A DNA stretch of 64,000 nt from Ectothiorhodospiraceae bacterium (GTDB lineage: Bacteria > Pseudomonadota > Gammaproteobacteria > Nitrococcales > Aquisalimonadaceae), in assembly GCA_020831845.1 (NCBI GenBank), contig JAFIFV010000058.1, positions 1 to 64,000 of the forward strand. The letters are read 5' to 3'. The notes under the pieces are model-generated. The model saw nothing but the letters and a program-made list of their open reading frames with translations. It did no database searches and had not been told where the DNA came from. This document shows positions 2,330 through 20,325 of this stretch, one piece after another. The translations under genes were made by a program, and so were the position numbers. How positions within the stretch are numbered: position 1 is the first letter of the stretch; each line of letters starts with the position of its first letter.

Positions 2330-5300
2330 CCGACTCCACCTGCTCCCGGATGATCTGGATGGCCGCTCCATGACTCTGGCCGCGCACTGCCTCCTGATAC
2401 ATCAGCTCGGCCACCGCCGGGGGCTGGGTGTACTGCCCGGGAATCTGCGCGCGCAAGCGGAAGGCGAAGTCGTAGCTGCCCGCGGGCAGCGTTTCGTAGT
2501 AGAAGGCCACCTGGTGGTCATGGTAGGCGACGTAGTCGGGCGGCCGGCTCAGGGGCCGGGACGGCGTCGCTTCCGGCGGGGCGGTTTCCAGCGTCGGGTT
2601 CAGCGGCTCCATGCCCGCGGCGAGCGGCATGACCACCGCCACGTGGTGACGCTCTTCCGGATTGACCAGCGTCAACCGGTCTTCCACCACCTCGCCGACG
2701 GCAAAATCCACCACCCGGCCCGGCGAATCCAGCGCGACAACACGTTCCCGGTCCCGGACGACGCGAACCAGGCGCCGATCCACGGCGAAGCCTCTGGCAT
2801 GAGACGCGGCCTGCGAACCCGGTGCTGCGGGCACGTGACTTTGCCGCAGCAGCACGCCCAGCGGCTGGTCGCCGTCCTGGCTGAGTTGCAGCGGGCCGCC
2901 GTGTTCCAGCGGCAGACGCAGCAGCGGTGCCTCCGAACCCAGACGCTGCCGCCGTTGGCCGTCTTCCTGCGCAATGACGACCGTCACGTCGGCGCCCGCC
3001 GGATCGATGCGGGTCAGGCTCTCCGACAATGCCACGATGGCCTCCGCGTTGCTGTTGGTCGTCCCCCAGCCGTTGCCCCGGCCGAGTTGCACCAGGATGT
3101 CCACCAGCGCCTGCTCTCTCTCCGCCGCTCCGCCCGAGGCCTGCACCGCCTGCAGGACCTGGGCGATGGTGCGGGTCTCGGAGGGAAGTATCACCGGTGA
3201 ACGGTCCGTGGCCTGCTCGCGAAGACCGGCGTAGATCTCCTCGCCATCGTGCAGGCGGAAAATCAGGCTGCCCCACAGCATCTCGTTCAGGCGTTGCAGC
3301 ATGGCCTGTCCGGGGTTGCTCTCGGAGGCCAGCGCACGGGTGACGCGGGCGCTGGATTCGGTGTCCAGGAATTGGGTGCGCCGCGCCAGCTCCGCGGCAT
3401 AGCCGCTGTCCAGCTCGCCGTCGGCAGCCAGCGCCGTCAACGCCATGGTGCGCTCCAGGTAACGGCTGTAATAGCGGCCATGGCCGCCGCGCAGGCCCCG
3501 CCGCAGCGCGTTCTTCACCCGCTGTCGAAGTACCGGGTCAACGGTGAAGCCGGCCGCCTCGGCCTCGATCATCAGGTGCAGCGCCCAGGCGGTGACCGCC
3601 ACGTTGCCGTGGCGGGCGCCGGGCCAGAAGCCGATGGAACCGTCCTCCGCCGCGGCATCGGCCAGATAGGCCAGCGTGCCGTTGACATGGTGGTCCAGCA
3701 ACGCCGTCCCCTGCTCCGGATACAGCAGGCTCAGCAGTTCCCGCGCCGCCAGCAGGGCACGTGCCCTGCTGATGCGCTGCTCCGCGCATCCATGGGGATA
3801 GTGCAGCAGGTAATTCAACCCCGCGGCCGTCTCCAGCACGCCGGCCTGCCGCGACAGCAGCAAGGACCGCTGCAGGCTGCGTTCCCGTACCGGCTCGTCG
3901 ATGCCGTCCAGCGCGAGTGTCTCGCCGGGGCCGAGCCGCCGGCTCAGGACCGTACGGACCGCTTCGCGATCCGGGTACAGGGGCAGGTTCACGGAGAAGG
4001 CGTCACCGGCGCCGTCCGACTGCCGGCGGACACCCACCGTGATGCCGACATCGGGCCGTCGGGACGGGGCCTGCGGCCCGTGTTCCGGCATCGGCACCGA
4101 GACCGGGTATTCGATGCGGTGGGCACCGGTCCCCGGCCAGCGGAACTGCTGCTCCGCGGCCGAGCCGGCCTCCAGCCCGCGGAGTTCCAGCACCGCCTCG
4201 CCGGCGCCGGATTCGCCGTCCACCACCCTGCTGGTCGCGGACAGCGTGAACCGGTCACCATAGCGCAGGAACCGCGGCAGCGACGGTTGCACGATCACCG
4301 GCAAGCGCACGGCCATTCGGCCGGTGCCGTGGCCGAAGCGGTCCGGGCCGGCGACTGCCTTGGCCCGCAGCATGAAATTGGTGAGGTCATCCGGCAAGGT
4401 GATGGTCACGCTGGCCGTGCCGTCCGTGCCCACGGCAATGCCATGCTCGAAATACGGCACGGACTCGAACCGCTCCCGCACCGTGAGACCGTCCAGTATC
4501 TGCTGGGCACTGTCCATGCGGGCGGCGGCATCGCCGCCAGGCTCGGTGAGAAAGGGCAAGGTCCCCACGGCGCGGTTGCGTGTATCCCGGATGGCCGTCC
4601 GCACGGGGCGCTCGCGAATGAAATCGCGCAGCGGGTCCAGCGGCTGTTCCTCGCCGAGGGCAAGCACCGCCTGATCCACCAGCCAGAGACTGACCCGGCC
4701 GGCCAGCGGCCTGCCCTCGCGATCGGAGAGACGGATGCGCAGGGTCACATCCTCGCCGGGCCGGGTCTGCGCCGGGTACTCCAGCGCCACCTCCAGACGG
4801 TGGTCGTCGTCCGCCACCGTCACCGTGGCGGTCGCCGCCATGGTGACCGGCTTGCCCAGGTCCAGTCCGTGACGGTCGACCGGTCCGGCTCCCTCCAGCC
4901 GGCCGCGCATCAGCACGAAATGCACCGGCACGCCGGGCATGAAATCCCGGGTCACCGGCAACTCGAAAACCGCCTTGCCGTTCTCCACCGCCAGCCAGTG
5001 ATAGCTGTTGCTGCCATCCGGGCGCTCCACCATCGCAAGCACACTGGCGGCGGCCATCGGGCTCTGCAGGATGAAGCGGGCCGTGTCGCCGGGCGCATAG
5101 CGGTCGCGCTCGGTGGCCACATCAAAGGTGGCGGCCGGCGGCCGGGGCCAGGTGGCGCGGCTTTCACCGTTGTTGAACAGGTCCAGTTCCACGTGCTGGC
5201 TGCGGCCGAGGGCATCCCGGGCGGAGACTTCCAGCACGTAGACACCGGTATCGTCCAGCGGCAGGCTGAACGCCAGCGGCTCCGCGGCGCTGGTCAACGT

Positions 5301-8156
5301 GCGCTCCGCCAGCGGCTCGTCGACGACCTCGGTGCGATAGGCCGGCTCGCCGTCCGTGAAGTCCGAGGCCTGCAGCCGGGCCGCCCAGCGGCGCCGGATC
5401 AACCGCACCGTGATCTCTTCGCCGGCAATCAGCTCCTCGTCGGGGCCCACCATGATCACCGAGGCATCCAGCGTGTCCGCGCGCTCCAGGTAGCGCGGCG
5501 CCTTCAGCCCCAGCACGAACGGCGGCAGCGCCAGCACGTCCAGCGTATCCGTCACCGTCTGGTCGTCGTCTCCGACCACGGTGGCCTCGAACACATAGCG
5601 GCGAGGCTGGGCCGTGGGCTCACGCGTGGGATCCACGGCCAGGGCGGCCACGCCGTCACCGTCGGTGCGTCCCTCCTCCGACAGCGCGGGCCGGGACTCG
5701 AACCGGGCCATGCCCGAGTAGCGGGCATCGGAGGAAAACAGATAGCCATCCCGGCCACGGGGTTGCCAGCGATAGGGAAACTGGGTCACCCGCCAGCGCA
5801 CCGGACGCTCCCGAACCATGCCGCCGGCATAGTATTCGGCATCCAGCCGCACCTGGAAGGGTCGATCCATGGGCGTCCGCGCCGGGCCGTCCAGCCGCAC
5901 TTCGAAGCGCGGGATGCGGTAGGCGGTGCGCTCCACCGTCACCGTGCCGCAGGGCTGCAAGCGCTGTTCGCTGCCGTAGCTGGCGGTGATGCGGTATTCG
6001 CCGGTGGCCTGGGTGTGTTCGTCGAACAGGCTGTAGAAGCCACCGTGGTCGTCCAGTTCGGGCCGGTAGCGCCACTCGCTGCCATCCGGCCCGGTAACCA
6101 CCAGGCTGACGCGGTTAGGCCGGTTCTCGATTTTCCCCCGGTGCACCTGACGCAGATAGCCGGCCATGTGCATGGCCTCATCCGGCCGGTACACCGGCCG
6201 CTCGGTGTACAGATGGCAGCGCCAGTCCGGCGATTCCGGACGCCCCGCCAGCGCGGCGGGGGATGCCACCCATTGCAGCCAGCCGCCCTCCCGGGCCAGA
6301 TTGCCGCGGAAGTAGCGCTCCGGCGGGCTGGAGCGGACATCCACCACCAGTGTGTCGTCGCCGTGGGTGACCACGATCCGCTCCGGCGGCAGTTCACCCC
6401 GGCCCGGGCGCGGCTGCCAGACATAGGCCCCGGACCGGTCGGTGAGGCCGTCGGCACGGTTCACCAGCAACTGGCCCGGCTGCCGCCGGGCGTCGCCGGC
6501 ATCCACCCGCACCCGTGCCCCTGCCACCGGTTCGCCGCTGCGCAGCGAGGTGACCATGAAGCGGATCTGCCGCTCCTCTTCCACCACCGTCAACGAGAGG
6601 TCGGTGACCTGCAGGCGCACCCAGTGACGCTGATCGCTGTCGTCCAGTCGCCGCAGACCCACCAGGTAGGTTCCGGGCCGGCCTTCGCCGGCGATCCGGT
6701 CCAGATGCCCGGACAGATCCAGACCGAACCGTGCCACGCCCTGGTGATCCCCCAGCGGCAACCGCACCAGCTCGGAGACGCTGGGCGAGCCCAATGCGTG
6801 GATGCGGGCGGCCAGCGCCTGGGGATCCATGCGCAACTGCGCCCGCGCCCCCGGCTCCTCGCCCGGGCCGGGCGGCCGTGCGTCATCGCTGACGACCACG
6901 GGGCTGTCCACATAGGGCCAGAAATCCAGGTCCTCCGGATCCACGGCATGGATGCGCAGATCCACCCGGCTGTCGCCCCGGCCACGCAACGGCAGCATCC
7001 GCGGACCATGGCGCTCCATCAGCACCCGCCCCTCGCCACCATTGACCGACAGGAAATCCTGCGGCGCGGGAAATGCGAAATGCAGGCTGCTGGCACCGCC
7101 CAGCTCCAGCGGCCGGCCGTGCACGTCCTCCAGGCCGGCGGGGGTGACCGTCATCCGGTAGACGGTGTCAGACCGGAAATCGCCGCTGACGCGCAGACGG
7201 TTACCCGCCACCCGGTAGCTGAGGCCGTCCACGGCCGGCTCGAAACTCATCAGGTTGCGGCCCTGCACCGGATCCACCGGTGCCGGTTCTTCGGTGAAAT
7301 GCACGTCCAGCGAGCGGTGTTCCTGCCGACACAGCGTCACATCCTCCGCCGGATAGGCGGTACCCTCCTGGGTCACCGCCCGCAGGGACTGGGGACAGCC
7401 GAAACTGACCGGGCGGAACGGCCGCCGGGTGCGGAAATCGATGGTCTGGAAGGCCTGCTCGGCGGCGTCATCCAGCGAAAGGCGCAGCCGGACCACCGCG
7501 CGCATGCCCTCGCCCACGGGGTCCTGCAGCCGGAGACGGTAGCGGGCCGGTGCAGCGCGGTCCGCCCGCTCCAGGGCCTGGAGACTGAAAGCCTCGCTGC
7601 CCAGCGTCCGCAGCGGCTCGGCATCGATTCCGGGCTGGCGGTAGACATCCACGCGAATCATCCGGGCCAGGTCGTCTTCGGCCACGGGTTCTCGGAAACC
7701 GAGGATGATGGTATCCACCGGCGGCAGGTTGTCGGCACCATCGGCGGGCAGGCTGAGTATGGCCGGGGCCATCAGCGTGGACAGCGTCCGGCGGTGGTCG
7801 CCCACCTGCCAGCGGATCCCGGCCAGCGCCGGCCAGGGATCGACCGGCCGGAACTGCAGCGTCCGCGCATCCAGCCAGCGGTAGACGCCGGGGTGCTCGG
7901 GCGTCAGATGCACATGGCGTTCGGGCTCGGTTTCCAGCCCTCCTTCCGCGGGGCCGCGATCCTCGTCGAAGAAGATGGTGACCGGGTCCCAGGCCCGCAG
8001 AAACCGTTCGGGAACCATCACCGCGCCGTCCGGCCGCGCCGGCACCGCGTCGGCCAGCGCCGGGGCGCAGACCAGGGCGAACAGCAACAGCAGCGCCAGG
8101 CCGACGAGCTGCCGGCAGAGGCGGGGCCTTCGAGGGAAGAATCCTGTTGCTCGCAT
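2310..8156 (-). CDS. Alpha-2-macroglobulin family protein (YfhM-like), thioester CxEQ motif intact
   Basis: 1948 aa; signal peptide; MG/A2M domain text; YPHGCAEQRISRA thioester motif encoded at about 3777-3788; adjacent to pbpC as in E. coli yfhM-pbpC. Confidence 0.92.
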   Translation of the reverse strand: MRATGFFPRRPRLCRQLVGLALLLLFALVCAPALADAVPARPDGAVMVPERFLRAWDPVTIFFDEDRGPAEGGLETEPERHVHLTPEHPGVYRWLDARTLQFRPVDPWPALAGIRWQVGDHRRTLSTLMAPAILSLPADGADNLPPVDTIILGFREPVAEDDLARMIRVDVYRQPGIDAEPLRTLGSEAFSLQALERADRAAPARYRLRLQDPVGEGMRAVVRLRLSLDDAAEQAFQTIDFRTRRPFRPVSFGCPQSLRAVTQEGTAYPAEDVTLCRQEHRSLDVHFTEEPAPVDPVQGRNLMSFEPAVDGLSYRVAGNRLRVSGDFRSDTVYRMTVTPAGLEDVHGRPLELGGASSLHFAFPAPQDFLSVNGGEGRVLMERHGPRMLPLRGRGDSRVDLRIHAVDPEDLDFWPYVDSPVVVSDDARPPGPGEEPGARAQLRMDPQALAARIHALGSPSVSELVRLPLGDHQGVARFGLDLSGHLDRIAGEGRPGTYLVGLRRLDDSDQRHWVRLQVTDLSLTVVEEERQIRFMVTSLRSGEPVAGARVRVDAGDARRQPGQLLVNRADGLTDRSGAYVWQPRPGRGELPPERIVVTHGDDTLVVDVRSSPPERYFRGNLAREGGWLQWVASPAALAGRPESPDWRCHLYTERPVYRPDEAMHMAGYLRQVHRGKIENRPNRVSLVVTGPDGSEWRYRPELDDHGGFYSLFDEHTQATGEYRITASYGSEQRLQPCGTVTVERTAYRIPRFEVRLDGPARTPMDRPFQVRLDAEYYAGGMVRERPVRWRVTQFPYRWQPRGRDGYLFSSDARYSGMARFESRPALSEEGRTDGDGVAALAVDPTREPTAQPRRYVFEATVVGDDDQTVTDTLDVLALPPFVLGLKAPRYLERADTLDASVIMVGPDEELIAGEEITVRLIRRRWAARLQASDFTDGEPAYRTEVVDEPLAERTLTSAAEPLAFSLPLDDTGVYVLEVSARDALGRSQHVELDLFNNGESRATWPRPPAATFDVATERDRYAPGDTARFILQSPMAAASVLAMVERPDGSNSYHWLAVENGKAVFELPVTRDFMPGVPVHFVLMRGRLEGAGPVDRHGLDLGKPVTMAATATVTVADDDHRLEVALEYPAQTRPGEDVTLRIRLSDREGRPLAGRVSLWLVDQAVLALGEEQPLDPLRDFIRERPVRTAIRDTRNRAVGTLPFLTEPGGDAAARMDSAQQILDGLTVRERFESVPYFEHGIAVGTDGTASVTITLPDDLTNFMLRAKAVAGPDRFGHGTGRMAVRLPVIVQPSLPRFLRYGDRFTLSATSRVVDGESGAGEAVLELRGLEAGSAAEQQFRWPGTGAHRIEYPVSVPMPEHGPQAPSRRPDVGITVGVRRQSDGAGDAFSVNLPLYPDREAVRTVLSRRLGPGETLALDGIDEPVRERSLQRSLLLSRQAGVLETAAGLNYLLHYPHGCAEQRISRARALLAARELLSLLYPEQGTALLDHHVNGTLAYLADAAAEDGSIGFWPGARHGNVAVTAWALHLMIEAEAAGFTVDPVLRQRVKNALRRGLRGGHGRYYSRYLERTMALTALAADGELDSGYAAELARRTQFLDTESSARVTRALASESNPGQAMLQRLNEMLWGSLIFRLHDGEEIYAGLREQATDRSPVILPSETRTIAQVLQAVQASGGAAEREQALVDILVQLGRGNGWGTTNSNAEAIVALSESLTRIDPAGADVTVVIAQEDGQRRQRLGSEAPLLRLPLEHGGPLQLSQDGDQPLGVLLRQSHVPAAPGSQAASHARGFAVDRRLVRVVRDRERVVALDSPGRVVDFAVGEVVEDRLTLVNPEERHHVAVVMPLAAGMEPLNPTLETAPPEATPSRPLSRPPDYVAYHDHQVAFYYETLPAGSYDFAFRLRAQIPGQYTQPPAVAELMYQEAVRGQSHGAAIQIIREQVESDGAESR

Positions 8157-8159
8157 TCC

Positions 8160-11100
8160 TTACTCCTGTCCCTGGCCGCTGAGCCGCCGACGCACCTCGT
8201 CCGGAACCAGATCCTCCGGTGCTTCCGAACCCACCAGCGCGGCGCGCACCAGCACCGGCGCCTGATCCGGCGGCAGGTGGGCAATCAGGTAATAGTTCCC
8301 GGCCGGCAGGTCCCGATGCAGTTGCACGACGCCCTCGCCCAGCACCTCGCCGTGGGCGTCCATCAGGCGCCCCTGCACCACGTCCTGGTCCGCCCGCAGG
8401 CCGACGCCCACGGTGCGCTCCTCGTCCAGCCGGAAGCCGAACACCCGGCTTTCGCCCGGCGCAAGCCGCACGGGCTCACCCAGCCCTTCCGGCATGGGGT
8501 CGGCGGATGCCAGCCGCCATTCCGGCACCCCGCCTGTGCCGGCCAGCGCGAAGCGCAGCCGGTGCTCGCCGGCAGGAAGCAATACATCGACCGGATGGGC
8601 GGCATCCAGCCAGTAATCCCCCCTCTCGCCGACTCGGGCCACGGCCGCAGCCGGGCTGCGCAGGCCCAGCAGCGCCGGCGTGGCGGTGCTGATCGTTGCC
8701 GCTTCCGTCCACTCCGGGCCATCGTCAGCCTCGATCCAGACGCCGTAGGCCCCGGTGCCGTGGGCGAGATGCAATCTTCCCCTCGAGGCGTTTCCCACGG
8801 CGATCATCCCGTTCGCCGACCGGATCATCCGGCCGTCGCCGGTCAGCATGTAGGCGAGACCCAGATCGCCACCGAGGCGGATGACGGCATCGGGTTCCAG
8901 GCCGCTCACCGACACGATGCGTTCGCCGCGGTGGCCCTCGGCCAGATGCAGCATCCGGCCTGGCTCCAGGTGGCGGTGTGCGCCAGCCGGCAGCAGAGAC
9001 AGGCTGATCCCGGCGCTGCTCTCACCGGCGTTGGCCAGCCAGAGCACGCCTCCCCGTACCGGTCCCCGGACCGTGCCGGCGGAAAGACCGGTCCAATGGA
9101 CCTGGCCGTCATTGCCACCGCCGGTGATAGCGGCAATACCTGCCGGCCCGGCCAGCCGCAGTTCATGCGCCGCCCCGTCCGGCAGCACGAACTGCGCCAC
9201 GGTGCCGGCCTCCAGATGAACCTGGCGACGGGCATTCACCGCCAGCGCCCCGTGATCTTCCACGGCCAGTGTGCGTTGCTCCAGGCGCAGCGTTGCGGGC
9301 CGGTCCACGCCGTCGGCCCGCCGCACCTCCAGCAAGGCCACTTCTTCGCCAGGCAGGGCCACCGCCACCGCGCTGCGTCCGGCCACCGTCCACCGGCTGT
9401 CGTCGCGCTCCGCGGCGCGAACCACGGGCGCCGGCCCCGCGCTCTCCGCCAGCCAGAGCCGGAAGGTCGTCTCGTTCCCGGCACGGTCGTCGACGGGCAG
9501 TCGCACGGCCGACGCCACCGGAACGTCCAGCCGCTGCCCTGCGCGCAGCCGCGGAGCAGTCAGCGTGACTGGCGCCGGTTCGCGATCACCCACCAGCCAG
9601 AGCACCGGTTCCGTCGCCGGGATCCAGCCCCGGGCGGCCGGGCGGAATACACCTCCCGGATGAGCCCACAGCAGGTCATCGGCGCCCTGCGCCTGTTGCA
9701 GCGTGGCGACCGGCAACCGGCTCGACGCCAGCGTCATGCCGGTACCGGGAACAGCCCGAGGCTGGACCATCAGGGTATCCCCGGCCCCCGGCTCCTCCAG
9801 CAGGCTGTCCGGAGCCGTGCCTACGGCGATCTGAACGGGGGCCTGACCGTCATCCAGCGGCCAGACCTGTAACCGGTGCGGCGCGGCATCCGTGCCCGCA
9901 AGCACCAGCCCGGCCCGGTTGGTACGCCCGGTGACCGTGTGCAGCACCTGCCAGCGGTCGCCTTCCAGCCGCTCCAGGGACAGGCCGTGCGTGCCCCTGG
10001 AGCGGGTCTCGACGAGCAGGGGGTAACCCTGCTCCGGCACGACGTCAGGCAAGGCCAGCGGATAGGCATGCACCTTCCGCTCCTGCTGCTCGGCATCGTC
10101 ACCGGCTGCCAGCGCCGGCTTGTCCCCTCGTTCCAGCCAGGCCAATGCGATGTCGGCCTCGCCATCACGACCATCCGCGGCATTGAGTTCCAGGCTGTAG
10201 CGTCCAGCCGGCAGATGCCGGCTGATCAGGAAGTTCCAGTCGTCCGGCCGGCTGTCGCTGAAGGCCACACGATGACCATCCGCATCCCGCAGGGTGGCCT
10301 CCACATCCAGCCCGGACAGGGACCAGAGCTGCACCATGCCGTCCTCGGCCAGGGACAGCGGCACGGAACCGGGCACAGCGACCCGCCGGCTCTGCCCGAA
10401 CGGCAGTTCACGGGTGCTGACCGCCAGGCGGTAGCTGCGCCGGTCATCCCGGCGGGCGGCGCGGACCAGCAAGCGATGGTCACCGGCTTCCAGGGCATGC
10501 CAGGCCGGCTCCACCGCCCCACGGATGCGGGCGACCGGCCGCCACGCCCGGTCGTCTCGCCGTTGCAGTTCAGCCTCCATGGCCGGGTGCAGATCCACCC
10601 GCACGTCCATGGGCGCGTCCAGCGCGAACTCCCACTGGTCAGGATGACGCTCGCTCTGCCCGTCACCGGGTTCGCGCCAGAGGTGGCTGCGCCGCGCGTT
10701 CAACGGCAACGGATGCGGCCCGTGCCCCTCGGTCTCGACAGCAGGTTCCGGCGGCGCGCGGACCCGGGTGACGGCCCGCGCGGTAACCGCTTGCGGAATC
10801 ACCGTCAGTGTGTGCTCGCCGGGCTCCAGCCGGACGGTCAGCGGCGTGCGGCTGCCGGGAACGATCACGGGCCAGCCATCCGGGCCGTCCAGCTGGATGG
10901 CGAAATCCTGCTCCAGACCGCGCACATGTATACGGTGTGGGCCCGGGCGGCTGACCGGGACGGTGTAGCGGATGGCGCCCTCGGGGCTCAGCGTGGCCCG
11001 GCCCGTGGTATCCGGCGGCAGCAGGCCGCCGTCATCGATCGGGGTGCGCGCCAGGCGCACCGCCATCGGCCCGGCGCTGCGCCCCTGCACGCCTGTCACC

Positions 11101-13325
11101 AGACGGTATTCACCGTCCCGCAGGTAGCGCTGGATGAGGAAGTTGCGGCCGCTGCCGCCTTCCGTCGAGGAAGCCAGTTCCAGCGTGGTACGATCACGCA
11201 GCTCACCGCGGGTATCCAGCAGGCCGGTGGATTCCAGCCGGTACAGCGCCGGCTCCGTCACGCGCAGCAGCAGGCTCTGACGGCTCTGGTGAGGCAGCGT
11301 AAGGCGCACCTCACCGTCCTGCGGCAGCTCCGCCGGCGGCTGGATGCGGCTGGCCAGAACCTGCTGCGGCAATACGTCCAGATCCGCATGGGTGACCACG
11401 GCGGGTGGTTCCTGCTGCCAGCGCAGGTGGAAGTTCACCGGCCGATCCGCGTCATTGCGGACGTAGGCGGTAAACGGGCCATCCCTGTTGACCGGGATGG
11501 CGCTGTCCCACGGCCCCTGCCGGCGCGCGGCGATCGGCAGCAGGCTTCCATCCGGGGCCTCGGCGACCAGGGTCCGGCCGCGTACGCCCTGGACCGGGAA
11601 ATCCCGGATGCTGCCGCCGGCCTGAGTCACCGGCAGCACCTGTTCCAGCCGCAGCGGCGTCGTGCGGATGACCAGCCCGCCACCGCCGTGGTCGAAGTCG
11701 TTGACCTCGGCAATCCGGCTCCTGCCGCTGTCCACCAGCCGCAGCATACCGGCATCGCGAACCGCGACCGCTTCGGCTTCGTCGACGTGATCGTCGCCAT
11801 CCGGCCCGATGCGCAGCTCGGCGATACCGGGATGCCCGGCGGCCGGACGCAGGGACAAGCGGTAGAGCCCGGCATTGAGCTCCCAGACATGGCGGCTGCC
11901 GGCTTGCCAGTCGGTGCCGGCCGTGTGCGGCGCGGACTGATACAAGGGCTGGATGCGAAAATCGGCGATGGCTTCGGACTGTTCGGTCAGTTCGGCCCGA
12001 TAGGTTCCGCCGTCCTCCACCTGCAGCAGCAGGTCCACGGGCCGCAGCAGGTTGAAGCGGTCGCGCCAGGCCTGCCGCTCCGAGACGGTCGGCAGCTGCC
12101 CCGTGAGCAGACCGCCCACCCCCCGGCGCAACAGTTCGTGGTCGACCACCGCGACGGTGGCCTGGACCGAGTCACGCGGATCGCCAAGACCGGCAATGCC
12201 GATCCACTGCGCCTCGGTATGTGGACGGTGCAGGGAATACCGGGTGCCGTGGTGCAGGTAGGCCAGCCGATACGGCTGTCCGGGGGCGTGTTCCACGGTG
12301 ATCAGCCTGGGCCGATGGCCATCCCCGTCGCGCACGGTCACTTCCGGCAGGCGGGCATCGCGGTCCAGCACCGCGCTGCTGAGGCGGACACCGAACGGGT
12401 CCGCGCCCTCCGCCAGCGGGCCTACGCTCAGCCGGGCGGGCTCGGCCTCATCCAGCTTCAGCTGGTACACATTGGCCGTGGTATTGACCCGCCATCTGTC
12501 CACCCCGAACGGGCTGGTCCGGTGCTGCCACCAGCCGTAGGCCGGCAGTTCGGGGATACCCTTGCGCAGGTACAGCGGTGCGCCCTCGGCCTCTTCCGCC
12601 CAGCGCTCGCCTTGGCCGCCGTAGACGGTCAGCCGGTAGATGCCCGGCTGCAGCCGGGTGTGGACGGTGCGTGCCTGCAATGGCCGGCCGCTCTCCGGCT
12701 CGATGCGACGACGATCTGGCACCACGTCGGTAAGCCATTCGCCATCACGCCAGAGGCGGACGTCATCCAGGTAGCGGCCGGCCAGTTCCAGCGTCATCCA
12801 GCGAGGCTCGTCCACCACGACCCAATAGGAACGCTGCTGGAAGTCCTCCAGCGTGGTTTCCAGCAGACGGGCTTCGGTCAGGCGGGGAAACGGCGCCTGA
12901 TGGAGTTCCCGGTACGGATGGACGCGGAAAGCGACCTCGCCCTCGCCATCGGGGTGCAGCACGGCCTTGACCAGACCGGCGCCAAAAATACGGTCGTGCC
13001 GATGACGGCGGGTTTCCAGCGGCCCGGCCATGCGGTCGACCAGTTGCACGCCGACCGGCATGTCGCCGTCGGCAATGAAGGCATGGCGTCCCGGCTCGGA
13101 CACCAGGATTTCCCGGCTGTGCCGGCCGGATACCGACAGCGTCTGTTCCACCGGCTCCGACGCGATCTCCAGGGTCGGGCTCACCTCTGCCGACACGCAG
13201 ACGCCTGCCGAAAGGAGCCCGGCCGCAACGGCAACGCATGCCAGCCGGCAGCGTAGCGAATCGGACGAAAAACCACCCCCTGGAGCACCGGCGAGGCCTG
13301 CCGCCGAGCTTGTTGCTGTCGTCAC
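8160..13325 (-). CDS. Giant predicted secreted protein (1721 aa) of repeated beta-rich modules, function unknown
   Basis: N-terminal signal-like segment (LRCRLACVAVAAGLLSAGVCVSAEV); recurrent 'L..G.YRL.v' units such as RNFLIQRYLRDGEYRLVTG, WNFLISRHLPAGRYSLEL, HRDLPAGNYYLIAHL; 3-bp gap to the A2M start. Confidence 0.8.
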   Translation of the reverse strand: MTTATSSAAGLAGAPGGGFSSDSLRCRLACVAVAAGLLSAGVCVSAEVSPTLEIASEPVEQTLSVSGRHSREILVSEPGRHAFIADGDMPVGVQLVDRMAGPLETRRHRHDRIFGAGLVKAVLHPDGEGEVAFRVHPYRELHQAPFPRLTEARLLETTLEDFQQRSYWVVVDEPRWMTLELAGRYLDDVRLWRDGEWLTDVVPDRRRIEPESGRPLQARTVHTRLQPGIYRLTVYGGQGERWAEEAEGAPLYLRKGIPELPAYGWWQHRTSPFGVDRWRVNTTANVYQLKLDEAEPARLSVGPLAEGADPFGVRLSSAVLDRDARLPEVTVRDGDGHRPRLITVEHAPGQPYRLAYLHHGTRYSLHRPHTEAQWIGIAGLGDPRDSVQATVAVVDHELLRRGVGGLLTGQLPTVSERQAWRDRFNLLRPVDLLLQVEDGGTYRAELTEQSEAIADFRIQPLYQSAPHTAGTDWQAGSRHVWELNAGLYRLSLRPAAGHPGIAELRIGPDGDDHVDEAEAVAVRDAGMLRLVDSGRSRIAEVNDFDHGGGGLVIRTTPLRLEQVLPVTQAGGSIRDFPVQGVRGRTLVAEAPDGSLLPIAARRQGPWDSAIPVNRDGPFTAYVRNDADRPVNFHLRWQQEPPAVVTHADLDVLPQQVLASRIQPPAELPQDGEVRLTLPHQSRQSLLLRVTEPALYRLESTGLLDTRGELRDRTTLELASSTEGGSGRNFLIQRYLRDGEYRLVTGVQGRSAGPMAVRLARTPIDDGGLLPPDTTGRATLSPEGAIRYTVPVSRPGPHRIHVRGLEQDFAIQLDGPDGWPVIVPGSRTPLTVRLEPGEHTLTVIPQAVTARAVTRVRAPPEPAVETEGHGPHPLPLNARRSHLWREPGDGQSERHPDQWEFALDAPMDVRVDLHPAMEAELQRRDDRAWRPVARIRGAVEPAWHALEAGDHRLLVRAARRDDRRSYRLAVSTRELPFGQSRRVAVPGSVPLSLAEDGMVQLWSLSGLDVEATLRDADGHRVAFSDSRPDDWNFLISRHLPAGRYSLELNAADGRDGEADIALAWLERGDKPALAAGDDAEQQERKVHAYPLALPDVVPEQGYPLLVETRSRGTHGLSLERLEGDRWQVLHTVTGRTNRAGLVLAGTDAAPHRLQVWPLDDGQAPVQIAVGTAPDSLLEEPGAGDTLMVQPRAVPGTGMTLASSRLPVATLQQAQGADDLLWAHPGGVFRPAARGWIPATEPVLWLVGDREPAPVTLTAPRLRAGQRLDVPVASAVRLPVDDRAGNETTFRLWLAESAGPAPVVRAAERDDSRWTVAGRSAVAVALPGEEVALLEVRRADGVDRPATLRLEQRTLAVEDHGALAVNARRQVHLEAGTVAQFVLPDGAAHELRLAGPAGIAAITGGGNDGQVHWTGLSAGTVRGPVRGGVLWLANAGESSAGISLSLLPAGAHRHLEPGRMLHLAEGHRGERIVSVSGLEPDAVIRLGGDLGLAYMLTGDGRMIRSANGMIAVGNASRGRLHLAHGTGAYGVWIEADDGPEWTEAATISTATPALLGLRSPAAAVARVGERGDYWLDAAHPVDVLLPAGEHRLRFALAGTGGVPEWRLASADPMPEGLGEPVRLAPGESRVFGFRLDEERTVGVGLRADQDVVQGRLMDAHGEVLGEGVVQLHRDLPAGNYYLIAHLPPDQAPVLVRAALVGSEAPEDLVPDEVRRRLSGQGQE

Positions 13326-13568: not shown

Positions 13569-13859
13569 TCAGTCGTCCGGCACGAACAGCATGGTGCCGT
13601 CATCCAGGCGGTAGGTGGTGCCGGCACGAACACCCTGCCCCTCGCCGATCTCGCCGCTGGTTTCGAAGCGCTCCAGCCGCTCCGCGGCGTCCGGGATGAT
13701 CTCGCCCCCCTCGTCACGGGCGGTCTGCTGCAGCGTGGTGGCGGCGCTCTGCGCCACCATGATCAGCAGCATGACCACGATCACCAGGAACACATCCACC
13801 ACGTTGACCACGGACAGGATGGGATCGTCGGCTTCCTCGGACTCCAGAAAACGACTCAC
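13569..13859 (-). CDS. DUF2149-like small membrane protein, ExbD/TolR-like TM segment
   Basis: 96 aa; DPILSVVNVVDVFLVIVVMLLIMVAQ resembles the ExbD 'PLvDvmLVLLIiFMv' TM with Asp; 4-nt overlap with the upstream ExbB-like gene. Confidence 0.75.
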   Translation of the reverse strand: MSRFLESEEADDPILSVVNVVDVFLVIVVMLLIMVAQSAATTLQQTARDEGGEIIPDAAERLERFETSGEIGEGQGVRAGTTYRLDDGTMLFVPDD

Positions 13860-14335
13860 GCCCGCGCCTCCTGCTGCTCAAGGCTCTTCAACGCGGACAG
13901 CAGCCAGCGACGGCGGACGGTGAGCACCCAGAAGGTGATGGAGGCCGTGATCAGCGCCAGGATAACGGCGGCGAAAGCCACCACCAATTGTTCGCCGACG
14001 GTGGCCAGGTCGCCGTCGCCAAGAGCCAGCAGCGCCGGGCCCAGTGGGATCATGGTCGCCACCAGTCCCAGCATGGGCGCGGTGCGCGACACCACCCGCA
14101 GCGGTTCCAGCCGACGCAGGATGAGCAGTTCCAGCTCTTCGCTGTCCGCAGGGCCGTGGGCGGCCTGGTGCGCCCTGAGCGGGCAGTGCTGCCGGCCCCG
14201 ACGCCGTTGCCAGGCGTCCATGGCGAAGGCCCCCAGGGCATAGAAGGCATAGGCGAACAACAGCAGGATCAATACCAGCACCGGCATCAGGAACAGCCGG
14301 CCCAGTTCGTACATGGCGAGTTCGAGTGCGGTCAT
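13856..14335 (-). CDS. MotA/TolQ/ExbB proton-channel family protein
   Basis: 159 aa; three hydrophobic segments; RTAPMLGLVATMIPLGPALLALGDGDLATVGEQLVVAFAAVILALITASITFWV matches the ExbB/TolQ C-terminal pattern. Confidence 0.88.
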   Translation of the reverse strand: MTALELAMYELGRLFLMPVLVLILLLFAYAFYALGAFAMDAWQRRRGRQHCPLRAHQAAHGPADSEELELLILRRLEPLRVVSRTAPMLGLVATMIPLGPALLALGDGDLATVGEQLVVAFAAVILALITASITFWVLTVRRRWLLSALKSLEQQEARA

Positions 14336-17300
14336 GCGGGAAATCCTCGATCCGGATGAATGGAAGCGCGCCGGGCACGCCAGCCCTGGTGGCCGACGCC
14401 CAGCAGGAAGCAGAGCAGCAGGGCAAGCAGGTAGAGCAGTGTCAGCCAGTCGCGGGCGGATTCCGCGCCGGCCTCGCTCACCGGCTGCATGACCTGGCCG
14501 GTCACGGTGACGGGTTGCGCCGCGCCGCCGGGCATGGCGGCGTTCATGCCGAATCCCGCCGCGGTTTCCATGATGAATTCATCCCGCGCCGCACTGTCGT
14601 TGCTACCGCCGTGCGCCTCGGTCCAGTCGTGATGGTGCGCCACCAGCGCCTCCAGCACGGCATCGTCCGGCGTCCAGTGGCCGGTGCGAACGGCATCCAG
14701 CATGCGCTCGATGATACGGGTCAGCGCTTCCGGGTTGTGGCTCTCGAACCACTCCGCCAGCCCCAGGTCATAGGCGTCGTCCACATAGATGTCGAAGAAC
14801 CGCGTCCACTGGTCGTCACGCACCATTTCCGGGGCCGTGGCCTGCCAGCCCCAGAAATTCTCGATGGTGGCCTGCAGCGTGGTGGTGCCGGAGTAGCCCT
14901 CGTTCACCATGCTCTGCAGCCAGCGCGGGTGGTGATAGCGGGTACGCAGTTCCCGCGACAGGAACCGGTCGGCGCGCTCGGTCTGTGCGCTGGCGGGGTC
15001 ACGCAGGTTGCTGATATAGAGCGTCGGCCGCTCGCCGCCGGCCACCTTGGCACCCAGCGACAGGCCGCCCAGGTACTGGAAGGGATCATCCGAGCTGAGC
15101 AGACCGTACAGGTTGGAGCTGCGCGCGAAGATTGCCGCATCCACGGTGGCGAGCTGGGTCTCGAACAGGTTCAGACCCGGTACGGTCTCGCCCCAGTGCT
15201 CCGGATCCGGCCCATAGGCATGCTGCAGACGGTCGAGGAAAACCCGGCCCAGGTAGGCTTCGTCCAGCACGCTGCCGTTGGACCAGGCATCCACATCGGC
15301 CACGGCGCCGTCCAGGCCCAGACCGTACTGGCCGATGTCCGAGGAGAAAGCACGGGTCCGGCTCAACCGCTCCACCGCGTCGGCATCCAGCCCGGCGGCG
15401 GCCAGTTGCTCGGCCAGGGCCCGGGTCATGGCCCGGACCGGGTTGTCCGGTTCATCCTGCCCGGCGGCCAGCGCGGCGGCTTCCGCCAGGAGTTCCAGGG
15501 TGCCGGCGAAGGCGTCGCGGTAGAGGCCGCTGGTCTGCAGCAGCACGTCTACGCGCGGGCGGCCCAGTTCCTCCGCGGGAACAACTTCCACGCCGGCCAG
15601 TCGGCCGCGATCATTCCACACCGGTCTGACGCCCAGGGCGGTGAGTACCTGCCCCTCCACCACGCCATGGTGGCGCATCACTTCCATGGACCAGAGCGTG
15701 AAGGCCAGCCGCTCGGGCGGCCTGCCATGCTCGGCCTCGTGATCGGCGATCAGGCCCTCCATCAGTTCGGCGCCGGCCTCGAACGCCGCCCGGGTGGGCA
15801 CGCGGGAGGGATCGAAACCGTACAGGTTGCGGCCGGTGGGCAGCGAGTCCGGGTTGCGGATCGGGTCGCCGCCCACCGAAGGTTGCACGAATCGCCCCTC
15901 CAGGGCCGCCAGCAGGGCCGACAGCTCCTGCTGGTCCCGCAGCGCCTGCATGTAACCGGCTCCGCGCTCCAGCTGTGCGCGCAAGGCGTCGGGGGCATCG
16001 TCCGGTGGCGAGTCCTCCAGCAGGAAATCGTGCAGCACCCGGTACGGCCGCGATTCGAACACGGCGGTCTCGTGGTCGCCGGCAAACAGTTCTTCCGGGT
16101 CGGACGAAACCAGTTCCAGGAAATCATCGGCCAGCATCTGCATCACCGTGGTGACCAGGTGGGCGTCCTCGGCCGGCCGGCCGAAGGTGTGCAGGCCGAT
16201 GGGCTCGCTCTGCTGCGCCATGGCATGGATATAGTTGTGCAGCTCGTGCAGGTAATGATGGAAGTGATGACCCAGCGTGTGGTCGTCGAAACCCAGGTCC
16301 TGGTGGATATCCAGCTCCCGGCTGACGGCGATGATCTGCGCCTGTACCCGGTCGCGGGCAGCACCGTCGTCCATGGTCTCCCAGTCGTGCACCAGATGGT
16401 GCAGGTCCACCAGTTCGTGGTAGAGCGCTGCCGGCGCGAACGGCGGCGTCTGGTGGGAGATCATCGTGGCACGCAACCGCCGCTTTGCCAGCGTGGCCTC
16501 GGCCAGGTTGTCGACGATATACGGATAGACATGGGGCAGTTCACCGACCACGGCATGCGGATCGTCGTCCAGCGCCAGGCCACGGGTCTTGCCGACGCCG
16601 AATTCGGCTGAACCGTGGGTGCCGAAATGGATCAGAGCGTGTGCTCCATGCGCCTCATGCAGCCAGGCATAGCTGGCCAGGTAGTCATGGCTGAACGGCA
16701 GATCGGTATTGTGATAACTGCCCTCGCGCTCCGGATCGCCGCGCGGCGCCCTCGGCGGCTGCGACAGCAGGGCCACGTTGCCCAACCGCAGACGCGGGAC
16801 GACGAAATACTTGCGGCCATCACGCTCCACGACCGTGCTGGCGGATTCAGGCTCGCCCCATTCCTGCAACGTGCGCTGGACCAGGGTGTCGCCCCTGCTG
16901 GCCAGCCATTCCCGGTAACGGTCCAGCGGTAGCAAGACCGCAAGCCCGTCTTCCAGCAGGCCCTCCAGATCGGCATCGGGATAATAGGCGCCCACCAGCC
17001 GCTTGCCGGCCTCGGTGACACCCTCGACATCCGCCTCCGGCACGTCGTAGCCGGCCCGCTCCAGGGCCTGCAGGGTGGCCACCAGACTCTCCGGCACATT
17101 CATGTTGGACGCGGAGAAATTGGTGTCGCCGGAAGGGTAGTTGTAGATGTAGATACCCAGGCGCTTGTCGGCATTCGGCATGCGCGCCAGTTGCGCCTGA
17201 TTCATGGCCCGCCGGACCAGCCTGTCCAACTCCGGTTGGACAGGCACTACCTGGCCGTCACCCTCCCTTTCGGCGGCCACCACGGTGGGATCGGTCGCAC

Positions 17301-18273
17301 CGGCCATCTCCGCCATGGCGAAGTAGAACGGCGTACTGCCCCGGGGGAAACCCACCGGATCCGCCCGCCAGGCGGCTTCATCGCCGTCCCTGTAGATCAG
17401 CCCCTGCAGCACCGGGACACCGAGATCGCGAAAGTCCTTCCGCCGGCCTTCCGGGTTCAGTGCCACACGATAGAACAGCAGCGCGTCAATCACAGGGTCG
17501 CCGTCGGGCGCGACCACGGCAGGCAGGCCTTCCGGATCGTTGACCGGCACGTAGAAAACCAGCGGCACACCGCCGGCGGCCTCGATGCGCTCCGCGGTGG
17601 CGTCGATCCAGTCGGTCAGCGTGTGACGGATGTGGATGTCATGGACCAAGACACCGATGACCGGCTTGCCGCCGAAGTCACCGTACCAGTTGCGGTAGCT
17701 GTCCAGATACGGGAACACTACCCCCTCGTAATCCGGGTGGTAGACGCCGCGCTCGGGATAACGGATCGGATCCGGCGCCGTGCCCGCGTGCAGGCCCAGC
17801 ACCGGGCCGGCGATGTGGCGGTAGAGGGCGTCGAAATTGCGAGCGCCGCCCTCGGACAGATACAGGCCCAGGCGCTCGCCCAGGGAGGTTTCCAGCCCAT
17901 CCACCTCGGTACGCTCGCGGTGAACGATCACCATCGGCGTTCCGCTGGCGCTCAGCGCCTCCCGCAAGGCCTGCACGCGTTCCGGTTGCGCAATGGCGTG
18001 ACTGGGCGCGAACACCACGACCAGATCATGCCCTTCCACCAGCGCCGCATCCGGCTCTGGTGGAAGGGTCTCGACGTAACCGGTTTCGGTTTCGATTCCG
18101 TGCTCCCGGCCCGTAAGCCGCAGCTCGGCCAGCAGACCTGGACGAACCGTGTCGTTCCCCAATAGCAGGATGCGCGCGGGAGCATCCGCCGAAGCGCCTG
18201 ACGGTACGAGTATGCACAGCGCCAGCACGATGAGCCCCAGCAGCCTGTGGGCCGTGTGCTTCCCTCCTTCCAT
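14332..18273 (-). CDS. CobN/Mg-chelatase H-family protein with predicted N-terminal signal peptide and C-terminal TM anchor
   Basis: 1313 aa; HFGTHGSAEFGVGKTRGLALDDDPHAVVGELPHVYPYIVDNLAEATLAKRR and IGLHTFGRP are CobN-like; N-terminus HRLLGLIVLALCILVPSGASADAP; C-terminus DWLTLLYLLALLLCFLLGVGHQGWRARR. Confidence 0.9.
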   Translation of the reverse strand: MEGGKHTAHRLLGLIVLALCILVPSGASADAPARILLLGNDTVRPGLLAELRLTGREHGIETETGYVETLPPEPDAALVEGHDLVVVFAPSHAIAQPERVQALREALSASGTPMVIVHRERTEVDGLETSLGERLGLYLSEGGARNFDALYRHIAGPVLGLHAGTAPDPIRYPERGVYHPDYEGVVFPYLDSYRNWYGDFGGKPVIGVLVHDIHIRHTLTDWIDATAERIEAAGGVPLVFYVPVNDPEGLPAVVAPDGDPVIDALLFYRVALNPEGRRKDFRDLGVPVLQGLIYRDGDEAAWRADPVGFPRGSTPFYFAMAEMAGATDPTVVAAEREGDGQVVPVQPELDRLVRRAMNQAQLARMPNADKRLGIYIYNYPSGDTNFSASNMNVPESLVATLQALERAGYDVPEADVEGVTEAGKRLVGAYYPDADLEGLLEDGLAVLLPLDRYREWLASRGDTLVQRTLQEWGEPESASTVVERDGRKYFVVPRLRLGNVALLSQPPRAPRGDPEREGSYHNTDLPFSHDYLASYAWLHEAHGAHALIHFGTHGSAEFGVGKTRGLALDDDPHAVVGELPHVYPYIVDNLAEATLAKRRLRATMISHQTPPFAPAALYHELVDLHHLVHDWETMDDGAARDRVQAQIIAVSRELDIHQDLGFDDHTLGHHFHHYLHELHNYIHAMAQQSEPIGLHTFGRPAEDAHLVTTVMQMLADDFLELVSSDPEELFAGDHETAVFESRPYRVLHDFLLEDSPPDDAPDALRAQLERGAGYMQALRDQQELSALLAALEGRFVQPSVGGDPIRNPDSLPTGRNLYGFDPSRVPTRAAFEAGAELMEGLIADHEAEHGRPPERLAFTLWSMEVMRHHGVVEGQVLTALGVRPVWNDRGRLAGVEVVPAEELGRPRVDVLLQTSGLYRDAFAGTLELLAEAAALAAGQDEPDNPVRAMTRALAEQLAAAGLDADAVERLSRTRAFSSDIGQYGLGLDGAVADVDAWSNGSVLDEAYLGRVFLDRLQHAYGPDPEHWGETVPGLNLFETQLATVDAAIFARSSNLYGLLSSDDPFQYLGGLSLGAKVAGGERPTLYISNLRDPASAQTERADRFLSRELRTRYHHPRWLQSMVNEGYSGTTTLQATIENFWGWQATAPEMVRDDQWTRFFDIYVDDAYDLGLAEWFESHNPEALTRIIERMLDAVRTGHWTPDDAVLEALVAHHHDWTEAHGGSNDSAARDEFIMETAAGFGMNAAMPGGAAQPVTVTGQVMQPVSEAGAESARDWLTLLYLLALLLCFLLGVGHQGWRARRASIHPDRGFPA

Positions 18274-18275
18274 GC

Positions 18276-20213
18276 TTAGAACTCCCAGGCGACGGAGGTG
18301 TAATAGAAGCGGCCGCGGATTTCGTTGGTGTAGGCCTCGTCCAGATCGGCCAGACGCTGGTCGGTGAGATTGTCGATCCCGGCTCGCAGGAAGAAGCCGC
18401 TGCCCAGCGCCTGGCTGACGCCGATATGGAACAACGTGTAGTCCCGGGTCCAGTTGCCGCTGCGGCGCTGGGAGCCGATGTACTCGGTGCGTACATGCGC
18501 GCTTGCGCCAGGCCAGGTGGGCGTCTCCGCCAGCAGGTTGAAGCGGTTGCGGGGGCGGCGTTCCAGCGCCTCGCCGCTATCCCGGTCCCGGGCGTCCAGG
18601 TAGGTGTAGTTGGCCCGCAACAACATGCCGTTGTCCCAGCGGTGCGCTCCCTCCAGTTCCACACCCTGGGTGCGCGCACGATCCACGTTGCGATAGGTGG
18701 AGAGCACCAGCTCGCCTGCCGGCGGATCACCGGGTTCGCAGTATTCGATACACTCCAGATCGATCAGGTCCTTGATGTCGTTGCGGAATACAGTGACCGC
18801 AGCTCGGCGACGGGCGTCCTCGAACTCAAGGCCCAGGCTGTAGCTGTCGCTGCGCTCGGGCTCCAGATCGGCGTTGCCGATGATGCGCCGAGGCAGCGTG
18901 GCGAATGTGAAGTCGTAATCGCCGGCCGCGCGGCGGAGGTCCGGAGCAGCGAAGCCCCTGCCGTAATCGGCTTTCAGCCGGGTGGTTTCCGTGAAGGCGA
19001 AAACGGCTCCGACCCGGGGACTGATCTCCCCGGTGTAATTGGTGTGGTCGTCGTAGCGGGCGCCGACGGTCAGGATCAACTGATCGTCCAGCAGGTAGCT
19101 GCGATTCTGCACCAGCACGCCACGGTGGCTCACGGTCTGGTCCAATTCCCGACTACCTTCCCGGTCGCGCCAGAAACGCTCCCGACGGTAATCCGCACCG
19201 ATGGTCAGCGTCTGTCCTCGCCCCCAGTAACGCGAGCCGCTCCAGTCCACGATATCGTCGGTGTGCTCCTCCTCCCGATCCACATGGTGTGCTTCGGAGT
19301 GACTGCGAGACCGGTACACATCCACGCGGGAACGCCAGTCGAGGCTATCGAAGTCGTACCGCACACCGCTGCTGTAGCGGAAGATGTCCATCTCACGGGT
19401 GTCGGCGCTTCCGCGCCTCGCCCGGCGCTCGTCGTGGGCGCCGTGGAAGAACAGCTCCAGCTCGTGACCGGGTGCCGGGCGGTAGAAGAAGCTGCCAAGC
19501 CCGGTGAAGGCCTCCCGCCCCTCGATCTCGTCCAGGCCCGGCTGATCCGGATTGAGCGAACCGTTCCGGTCCAGGTACTCCACGCTCAGCAGCGCTCCGG
19601 TGTTTTCTGTCACCGGCCCGGCCGCATAGAAAGACATATTGCGCTCCTCGCCACCACGTCTGGGATCCGTGGCGCCAACCCTTGACTGAACCCGACCCGT
19701 CCAGCTGTCCCCCGGCGGACGAACAATGACGTTGACCACGCCGCCGAGCGCGTCGGCACCGTACAGCGACGAGGTGGGTCCGCGCACAACCTCGATACGA
19801 TCAATGGCGGAGGTGGGGATCTGGGTGAGCCGGAAATCGCTGTGCCCCACCAGTTCATCGGTGTTATTGACGCGCCGGCCATTGATCAGAACCAGCGTCT
19901 GCGCCGGCTCGAAACCGCGAATACGGACCTGCCCCCGTCCGTCCTGTTCGTTGTCGGCGGCAACGCCAGGCAGATCCCGCAGCAGTTCGCCCAGGGTGGA
20001 TGCCGGCTTGCGTTCAATATCCTGCCGGGTAACTTCGGAATAACCGGCCGGGGCCTCCTCCCGGCGGATATGGCTTCGGGTGGCAGTGACCACCAGCGGA
20101 CTCAGTACTTCAGGTTCCGTCACCCGGGTCGCTGCTTCCTCGGCTCCAGCCTGTGCCCAAACGGCCATGCCGGCAAGCAACAAGCACGGCACCCCCCGTG
20201 TGTATGCGTGCAT
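18276..20213 (-). CDS. TonB-dependent outer-membrane receptor (BtuB/CirA-like)
   Basis: ORF 18276..20339, preferred start 20213 (MHAYTRGVPCLLLAGMAVWAQAGA); plug domain LSPLVVTATRSHIRREEAPAGYSEVTRQDIERKPASTLGELLRDLPGV, VEVVRGPTSSLYGADALGGVVNVI-type motif; C-terminal aromatic FYYTSVAWEF. Confidence 0.95.
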   Translation of the reverse strand: MHAYTRGVPCLLLAGMAVWAQAGAEEAATRVTEPEVLSPLVVTATRSHIRREEAPAGYSEVTRQDIERKPASTLGELLRDLPGVAADNEQDGRGQVRIRGFEPAQTLVLINGRRVNNTDELVGHSDFRLTQIPTSAIDRIEVVRGPTSSLYGADALGGVVNVIVRPPGDSWTGRVQSRVGATDPRRGGEERNMSFYAAGPVTENTGALLSVEYLDRNGSLNPDQPGLDEIEGREAFTGLGSFFYRPAPGHELELFFHGAHDERRARRGSADTREMDIFRYSSGVRYDFDSLDWRSRVDVYRSRSHSEAHHVDREEEHTDDIVDWSGSRYWGRGQTLTIGADYRRERFWRDREGSRELDQTVSHRGVLVQNRSYLLDDQLILTVGARYDDHTNYTGEISPRVGAVFAFTETTRLKADYGRGFAAPDLRRAAGDYDFTFATLPRRIIGNADLEPERSDSYSLGLEFEDARRRAAVTVFRNDIKDLIDLECIEYCEPGDPPAGELVLSTYRNVDRARTQGVELEGAHRWDNGMLLRANYTYLDARDRDSGEALERRPRNRFNLLAETPTWPGASAHVRTEYIGSQRRSGNWTRDYTLFHIGVSQALGSGFFLRAGIDNLTDQRLADLDEAYTNEIRGRFYYTSVAWEF

Positions 20214-20238: not shown

Positions 20239-20257
20239 GATAACGTTATAACATAAC
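20239..20257 (-). promoter_or_regulatory. Candidate Zur-like operator upstream of the TonB receptor/CobN operon
   Basis: Minus strand GTTATGTTATAACGTTATC, palindromic core GTTATAAC, 26 bp upstream of the start codon; resembles the gammaproteobacterial Zur core ATGTTATAATAT. Confidence 0.45.
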
Positions 20258-20310
20258 TCTTCATGGCAATTGCAAGCCTGGGAAAGCACGTGCGCTCAAC
20301 CCATTGTTGC

Positions 20311-20325
20311 GAATAATTCTCATTT
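20311..20325. promoter_or_regulatory. Partial Fur-box-like sequence
   Basis: GAATAATTCTCATTT matches the right part of AAATGAGAATAATTCTCATTT; left part poorly conserved. Confidence 0.3.

Follow-up and report, generated by a model that had tools for sequence, protein, structure and literature searches.

The closest known systems to the locus considered here are de-chelatases of the HmuS/BtuS type. HmuS of Bacteroides is a membrane-anchored enzyme that takes iron out of heme, an activity that is lost in the H538A variant (PMC12583661), and BtuS1 and BtuS2 of B. fragilis support the use of heme iron (PMC6460266); BtuS had earlier been proposed as a third type of CobN, for metalloporphyrin salvage (as cited in PMC6460266). 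In Pseudomonas aeruginosa, the genes PA1922, PA1923, PA1924 and PA1925 are induced 147-, 122-, 45- and 56-fold, respectively, in a znuA mutant (PMC4542158), and the PA1922 promoter is bound by Zur in vitro in electrophoretic mobility shift assays (PMC8531726). This operon is among the most strongly induced by zinc starvation in that organism, and is usually labelled as one of cobalt or B12 synthesis. Here, we describe an operon encoding a TonB-dependent receptor, a CobN-like protein, an ExbB-like protein and a DUF2149 protein in the first 64,000 nucleotides of contig JAFIFV010000058.1 (assembly GCA_020831845.1) of an Ectothiorhodospiraceae bacterium, a stretch referred to below as the window. 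An earlier, sequence-only reading of the window drew the parallel with PA1922-PA1925, correctly as the above studies attest; the link to HmuS and BtuS was not part of it. Loci and genomes of the comparison carry our own L and G numbers.

We propose, with moderate confidence, that this is a Zur-repressed zinc-scavenging operon encoding a periplasmic de-chelatase, driven by the proton-motive force, that would free zinc from an imported chelate. On zinc shortage, the Cir-like receptor, powered by the ordinary TonB-ExbBD, would bring a zinc chelate into the periplasm. The CobN-like protein would then operate as a class I chelatase in reverse, releasing Zn2+ for ZnuABC and a Zrg-like ATP-binding cassette (ABC) system, and the ExbB-like/DUF2149 motor, coupled to the CobN anchor, would give the force that CobS/CobT or ChlI/ChlD give via ATP. 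By homology, de-chelation of a zinc chelate is the best-supported reaction. All homologues characterised so far act on tetrapyrroles, and for this reason the chelate may be a zinc-tetrapyrrole, for which zinc-coproporphyrin III, a natural bacterial example (PMC6104308), is a candidate.

The assignment of the operon to the zinc-starvation response under Zur control is well supported by promoter motifs and gene neighbourhoods. The Zur box ahead of the receptor gene, GTTATGTTATAAC, is one of only four exact sites that a pattern search with GTTATRNTATAAC returned from the 4.69-Mb genome, and the reversed pattern, as a control, gave 1 match even at up to one mismatch. The second exact site lies between znuC and the gene of a COG0523 GTPase (znuABC/COG0523 locus, L036), and the third precedes the ABC ATPase gene of a zinc-type ABC cluster with a DUF3299 gene (L035), a cluster that by our own assignment matches PA4063-PA4066, listed as a Zur-linked system (PMC4542158). 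The same 13-mer is found upstream of the operon in L041 and L042 (Billgrantia), L110 (Parvibaculum), L025 (G020) and L188. In L040 (the metagenome-assembled genome BRH_c0), the receptor, CobN, ExbB and DUF2149 genes are followed in order by dksA, COG0523, DUF1826, zrgA, a FUR-family regulator gene and a second COG0523 gene, with DUF3299 and ABC ATPase genes adjoining divergently, and in L025 the next gene encodes a Zrg-type ABC ATPase. L027, from a member of the same family as the window genome (G003), has the order COG0523-dksA-CobN-ExbB-DUF2149 with a Zur-like box ahead of COG0523. It is because of the Zur box and these zinc-regulon neighbours that zinc is named as the metal, and the broader expectation of a metal-related role in the sequence-only reading is thereby borne out and sharpened.

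Two further observations concern these loci. The fourth exact Zur site of the genome (L034, 5139-5151, on contig C26) stands about 85 bp before the gene of a secreted M10 (matrixin) protease (5236-6009), possibly a zinc-starvation-induced zinc protease. The CobN of L027 (5592-8831) is 72% identical to that of the window and begins at about residue 241, with a shortened N terminus; no receptor was detected nearby, and this may be a degraded or remodelled copy.

A profile built from three CobN proteins yielded 80 named loci, nearly all with the four-gene set of receptor, CobN, ExbB-like protein and DUF2149 in a single orientation; conservation of this kind, which the sequence-only reading had named as a check, excludes chance association. 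Two Zur-linked groups are supported in the tree, Z1 (the window, L027, L040, L041 and L042) and Z2 (L025, L188, L189, L152, L110, L112, L099, L109, L115, L116 and L117), and a single clade uniting them is not rejected against two origins (approximately unbiased test, p 0.22). Promoters were compared over 3.5 kb upstream, with at most one mismatch allowed for the Zur box and three for Fur-like sites. The Zur box was found in 12 of the 16 Z loci and in 0 of the 64 others (Fisher p 3e-11, a value made somewhat optimistic by the delimitation of the Z groups on the tree with the promoter hits already known), whereas Fur-like sites were found in 1/16 and 33/64, respectively. Within 650 bp, Fur-like sites occur at 24 of the 64 non-Z loci, compared with 7 of 273 random windows.

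The CobN-like protein is predicted, with good support, to be periplasmic, exported via Sec and anchored in the inner membrane by a C-terminal helix. Both termini, as described in the sequence-only reading, are conserved: a hydrophobic N-terminal stretch is present in 81 of 90 relatives, and hydrophobicity scans place a transmembrane (TM) helix at the C terminus of 81/90 type A and 7/8 type B proteins but of none of five canonical CobN proteins. The window protein is the only CobN in the genome assembly (89% complete), and NCBIfam names it cobaltochelatase subunit CobN (NF004644, 1312 bits against a cut-off of 1248), a name that its context does not support and that is probably misleading for DUF2149-linked members in general. 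Features at odds with a cobaltochelatase CobN are the signal and TM helix, the lack of a cobalamin riboswitch in the window, and the failure to find CobT in the same assembly. The sequence-only reading had noted that the window has no TonB, CobS/CobT or ChlI/ChlD gene; for TonB, this absence does not extend to the genome, in which TonB_C matches occur elsewhere.

The identification of the ExbB-like protein rests on a MotA_ExbB match above the Pfam cut-off and on an AlphaFold2 model of high confidence (predicted local distance difference test score, pLDDT, 94), for which Foldseek ranks 1-42 are all ExbB or TolQ, with probabilities up to 1.0 and E values of about 0.05 (none below 0.001); a PDB sequence search with its alignment gave no match. 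Homology of DUF2149 to ExbD is weak at best: the hhalign probability against ExbD is 8%, and one of eight TM-shuffled controls scored equally well. Of the resemblance to ExbD noted in the sequence-only reading, the invariant aspartate of the TM helix stands. The DUF2149 model is itself of low confidence (pLDDT 65), too low to be of use for a fold search.

A survey of 249 Pseudomonadota genomes supports an obligatory linkage of DUF2149 to CobN: CobN is encoded in 91 of them and DUF2149 in 10, and in 10/10 the latter lies within about 1.3 kb of CobN. Methanosarcina acetivorans, which has no outer membrane, likewise has DUF2149. Furthermore, L208 carries ExbB-DUF2149-CobN with no adjoining receptor, and an operon on a Trichlorobacter plasmid (L205, 7367-13945) carries both ExbB-DUF2149-CobN and a separate exbB-exbD-tonB. 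Because receptor-less modules exist and one operon also has a full ExbB-ExbD-TonB, the pair most likely drives CobN and not the receptor, and we infer that it is an ion-driven motor acting on CobN. The L205 set has a TonB receptor on either side, and the region is one of benzimidazole/cobamide genes.

The sequence-only reading had allowed for either target, CobN or the receptor, and it is the second that is now disfavoured. On that account, the ExbB-like/DUF2149 pair would be a private TonB-like energiser of the receptor, and the CobN-like protein would merely bind the chelate or zinc in the periplasm. The receptor does stand before CobN in most loci, and PA1924 has been treated as a possible component of TonB-dependent uptake (PMC4542158, PMC8456098). 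We nevertheless regard such a role as unlikely, given the constant company of DUF2149 and CobN, the receptor-less L208 (and L192, counted likewise, in which the receptor lies beyond ABC genes), the coexistence of both systems in L205, the housekeeping genes elsewhere in the window's own genome (3 TonB_C and 5 ExbD matches) and the lack of an ExbD-like fold match for the small C-terminal part of DUF2149.

The PDB matches of the window CobN are HmuS (9d26, the top match) and CobN (7c6o). The motif HFGTHG or H[YF]GTHG is common to the Zur clade, the Fur clade and HmuS (in the latter given as HFG(T/A)HG), whereas canonical CobN has H[VL]GKHG and type B proteins have HLGRHS or HVGRHS. HmuS and Fur-type proteins have the same residue as the window protein at Thr552, a position taken mostly by Lys in canonical CobN and by Arg in type B. 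The heme site of HmuS (Met79 and His254, in the head/neck with its HGR motif) is not kept in the window protein: the profile alignment places Pro90 opposite Met79 and a hydrophobic residue opposite His254, in a region of low identity, and a MAFFT alignment likewise shows no His at the latter position. Instead of LSLDHxxEFMGG, with His1209 and Glu1212, the window protein has LSSDDPFQYLGG, and the Met-rich insertion of HmuS, of about 120 residues, is absent (about 48 residues there, compared with about 212). Orthology with HmuS was rejected on the missing heme-site residues and insertion. The Z1 and Z2 groups differ from the Fur type at a few positions; one of these is Gln913, where Fur-type proteins have Ser, and which stands two positions away from the counterpart of HmuS Ser1067 in what has been proposed as the active-site cleft.

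It is in our estimation improbable that the operon is a heme system of the Hmu kind, in which the CobN-like protein removes heme iron and control by Zur reflects cross-talk between zinc and iron. The gene set is the same as HmuR-S-U-V, most proteobacterial sisters have Fur boxes, and a weak Fur-like site (TGAGAATTATTCGCA) lies upstream of the window receptor. That site, however, is not conserved in the relatives L041 and L042, the neighbours are those of a zinc regulon, and the residues and insertion that mark HmuS are those that the window protein lacks.

Some of the same comparisons weigh against the zinc de-chelatase proposed above. Since Met79/His254 and His1209 are not kept, the heme chemistry of HmuS is not transferable to the window protein. 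HmuS is active in vitro without HmuU/HmuV, with NADH (PMC12583661), so that it does not strictly depend on a motor, and the homology of DUF2149 to ExbD is weak. For the Zur type, both the substrate and the direction of reaction are predictions, and the Cir-like receptor could point to a metallophore other than a tetrapyrrole.

A third alternative is that cobalt or corrinoids are taken up in response to zinc starvation, and that the CobN-like protein inserts or otherwise handles cobalt in place of zinc. A znuA mutant of P. aeruginosa contains more cobalt (PMC4542158), cobalt relieves zinc starvation (PMC13083405), and sister operons of type B are under cobalamin riboswitches, one of which precedes the receptor in 5/5 type B loci with an upstream region examined. 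Type B proteins (1433-1500 aa, encoded among cobalamin genes), however, form a separate lineage in the tree and differ from the window protein in the active-site motif described above, and with no riboswitch in the window we consider cobalt rescue decidedly improbable. Type B may itself be a corrinoid version of the module, acting as a periplasmic cobalt chelatase or de-chelatase. The loci L026, L028, L030, L031 and L032 have the order receptor-CobN-ExbB-DUF2149, a cobalamin riboswitch and cobalamin genes alongside. Least probable is a forward chelatase that charges a periplasmic ligand, exported or recycled, with zinc: class I chelatases normally insert metals and HmuS chemistry is reversible in principle, but an operon that is induced by starvation and includes an importer speaks for release, the direction in which the only characterised periplasmic relatives work (PMC12583661, PMC6460266).

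Other sisters are associated with other metals. Fur-type loci (L024 and L054, the latter of Alkalilimnicola ehrlichii, identical in the tree) have TAATGATTATCATT upstream and a bacterioferritin-like gene adjoining. A nickel version is suggested by gene context in two plasmids: in Runella (L190, 5839-11552), a NiFe-hydrogenase maturation cluster has the order hypA-hypB-hypF-receptor-urease accessory gene-ExbB-DUF2149-CobN-hypC-hypD-hypE, and in Azospirillum (L192, 7905-19720) the order is CobN-ExbB-DUF2149-ABC genes-receptor-nikR; a scan of the Pseudomonadota loci for NikR boxes gave only chance-like matches. G020 carries Fur (L024), Zur (L025) and B12 (L026) versions in one genome. A more tentative generalisation, which we put forward only as a possibility, is that CobN-ExbB-DUF2149 is a general de-chelatase of the periplasm, driven by the proton-motive force and mining imported metallo-tetrapyrroles, that has been adapted anew to zinc (under Zur), iron or heme (Fur/Hmu), cobalt or corrinoids (B12 riboswitch) and nickel (loci with NikR or hydrogenase genes).

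The features of the window operon are collected in Table 1. The four-gene set, its positions and its single direction were given exactly in the sequence-only reading, as were the 2-bp gap between the receptor and CobN genes and the 4-nt overlaps at CobN/ExbB-like and ExbB-like/DUF2149, and Pfam agrees with the set. The ATG listed is the likely start of the receptor, the longest open reading frame extending to 20339; among solved structures, it is closest to the Cir colicin I receptor (2hdf, E 4e-73). DUF2149 is followed after 243 bp, in the same direction, by an open reading frame of 1721 aa (8160-13325), which has no Pfam or NCBIfam match and was not found next to the operon in relatives.

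Table 1. Genes, promoter sites and protein features of the operon, in window coordinates
Feature	Position	Strand	Details
TonB-dependent receptor, Cir-like, outer membrane	18276-20213	minus	645 aa from ATG at 20213; Pfam Plug and TonB_dep_Rec
CobN-like class I chelatase subunit, BtuS/HmuS-type, predicted periplasmic	14332-18273	minus	1313 aa; PF02514, 951 bits; PDB matches; tree
ExbB/TolQ-like putative proton-channel subunit	13856-14335	minus	159 aa; PF01618 MotA_ExbB, 28 bits; model; Foldseek
DUF2149 protein, one TM helix and small periplasmic tail	13569-13859	minus	PF09919, 57 bits; alignments; model
Zur box	20245-20257	minus	32 bp upstream of receptor ATG; perfect match
Weak Fur-like site	20308-20322	minus	3 mismatches
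Sec-type signal peptide of CobN-like protein	18187-18273	minus	aa 1-29; by inspection
C-terminal TM anchor of CobN-like protein	14392-14448	minus	about aa 1276-1294; hydrophobicity scan, alignment
HFGTHG motif	16612-16629	minus	aa 549-554; His553 equivalent to essential HmuS His538; alignments
DDPFQYLGG	15064-15090	minus	aa 1062-1070; Asp where HmuS has His1209; alignment
Asp22 codon in DUF2149 TM helix	13794-13796	minus	invariant in 77/77 relatives; aligns to ion-carrying Asp of ExbD in a weak profile alignment

The comparison places both PA1922-PA1925 and the window operon in a family of periplasmic de-chelatases, makes a zinc chelate the predicted substrate and gives the ExbB/DUF2149 pair to CobN as its partner. 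A further implication is that the metal of any unannotated 'CobN' cluster can be predicted from its regulator, a kind of prediction that the HmuS study deemed unreliable (PMC12583661). If the more tentative generalisation above is true, CobN-ExbB-DUF2149 would be the first known case of a metal chelatase powered by an ion-driven motor.

Among known systems, HmuYRSTUV of the Bacteroidota shares with the window operon a TonB receptor, a CobN-like protein with a signal or N-terminal TM helix and a C-terminal TM helix, an ExbB-like protein and DUF2149 (PMC12583661, PMC13227078, PMC10434189; L193, L209), and HmuS shares HFGTHG with its essential His as well as predicted export and membrane anchoring. 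The window lacks HmuY, HmuT, equivalents of Met79, His254 and His1209 and the Met-rich insertion, and has a Zur box, whereas Hmu is controlled by iron or heme; in the tree, HmuS (a partial sequence on a long branch) falls outside the proteobacterial clade (Shimodaira-Hasegawa-like approximate likelihood ratio test, 90-99). PA1922-PA1925 is probably L188, the CobN of which lies 1.2 Mb from the canonical CobN of its genome, and through L188 it is seen to agree with the window operon in gene content, gene order and Zur 13-mer; the two differ in that its CobN belongs to Z2 and that of the window to Z1, and their receptors are 32% identical. Canonical CobN (with CobS/CobT) and ChlH/BchH (with ChlI/ChlD) share with the window protein the PF02514 body and the active-site His found throughout the superfamily, but are cytoplasmic, have ATPase partners and no TM helices, and in canonical CobN the motif is HxGKHG. 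Finally, ExbB-ExbD-TonB, TolQR and the other 5:2 ion-driven motors resemble the window pair in the ExbB/TolQ fold match and in a one-TM partner with an invariant Asp. They differ in the periplasmic fold of ExbD, which is not detectable in DUF2149, and in having TonB or TolA, for which the window operon contains no gene; here, CobN may be the driven element in their place.

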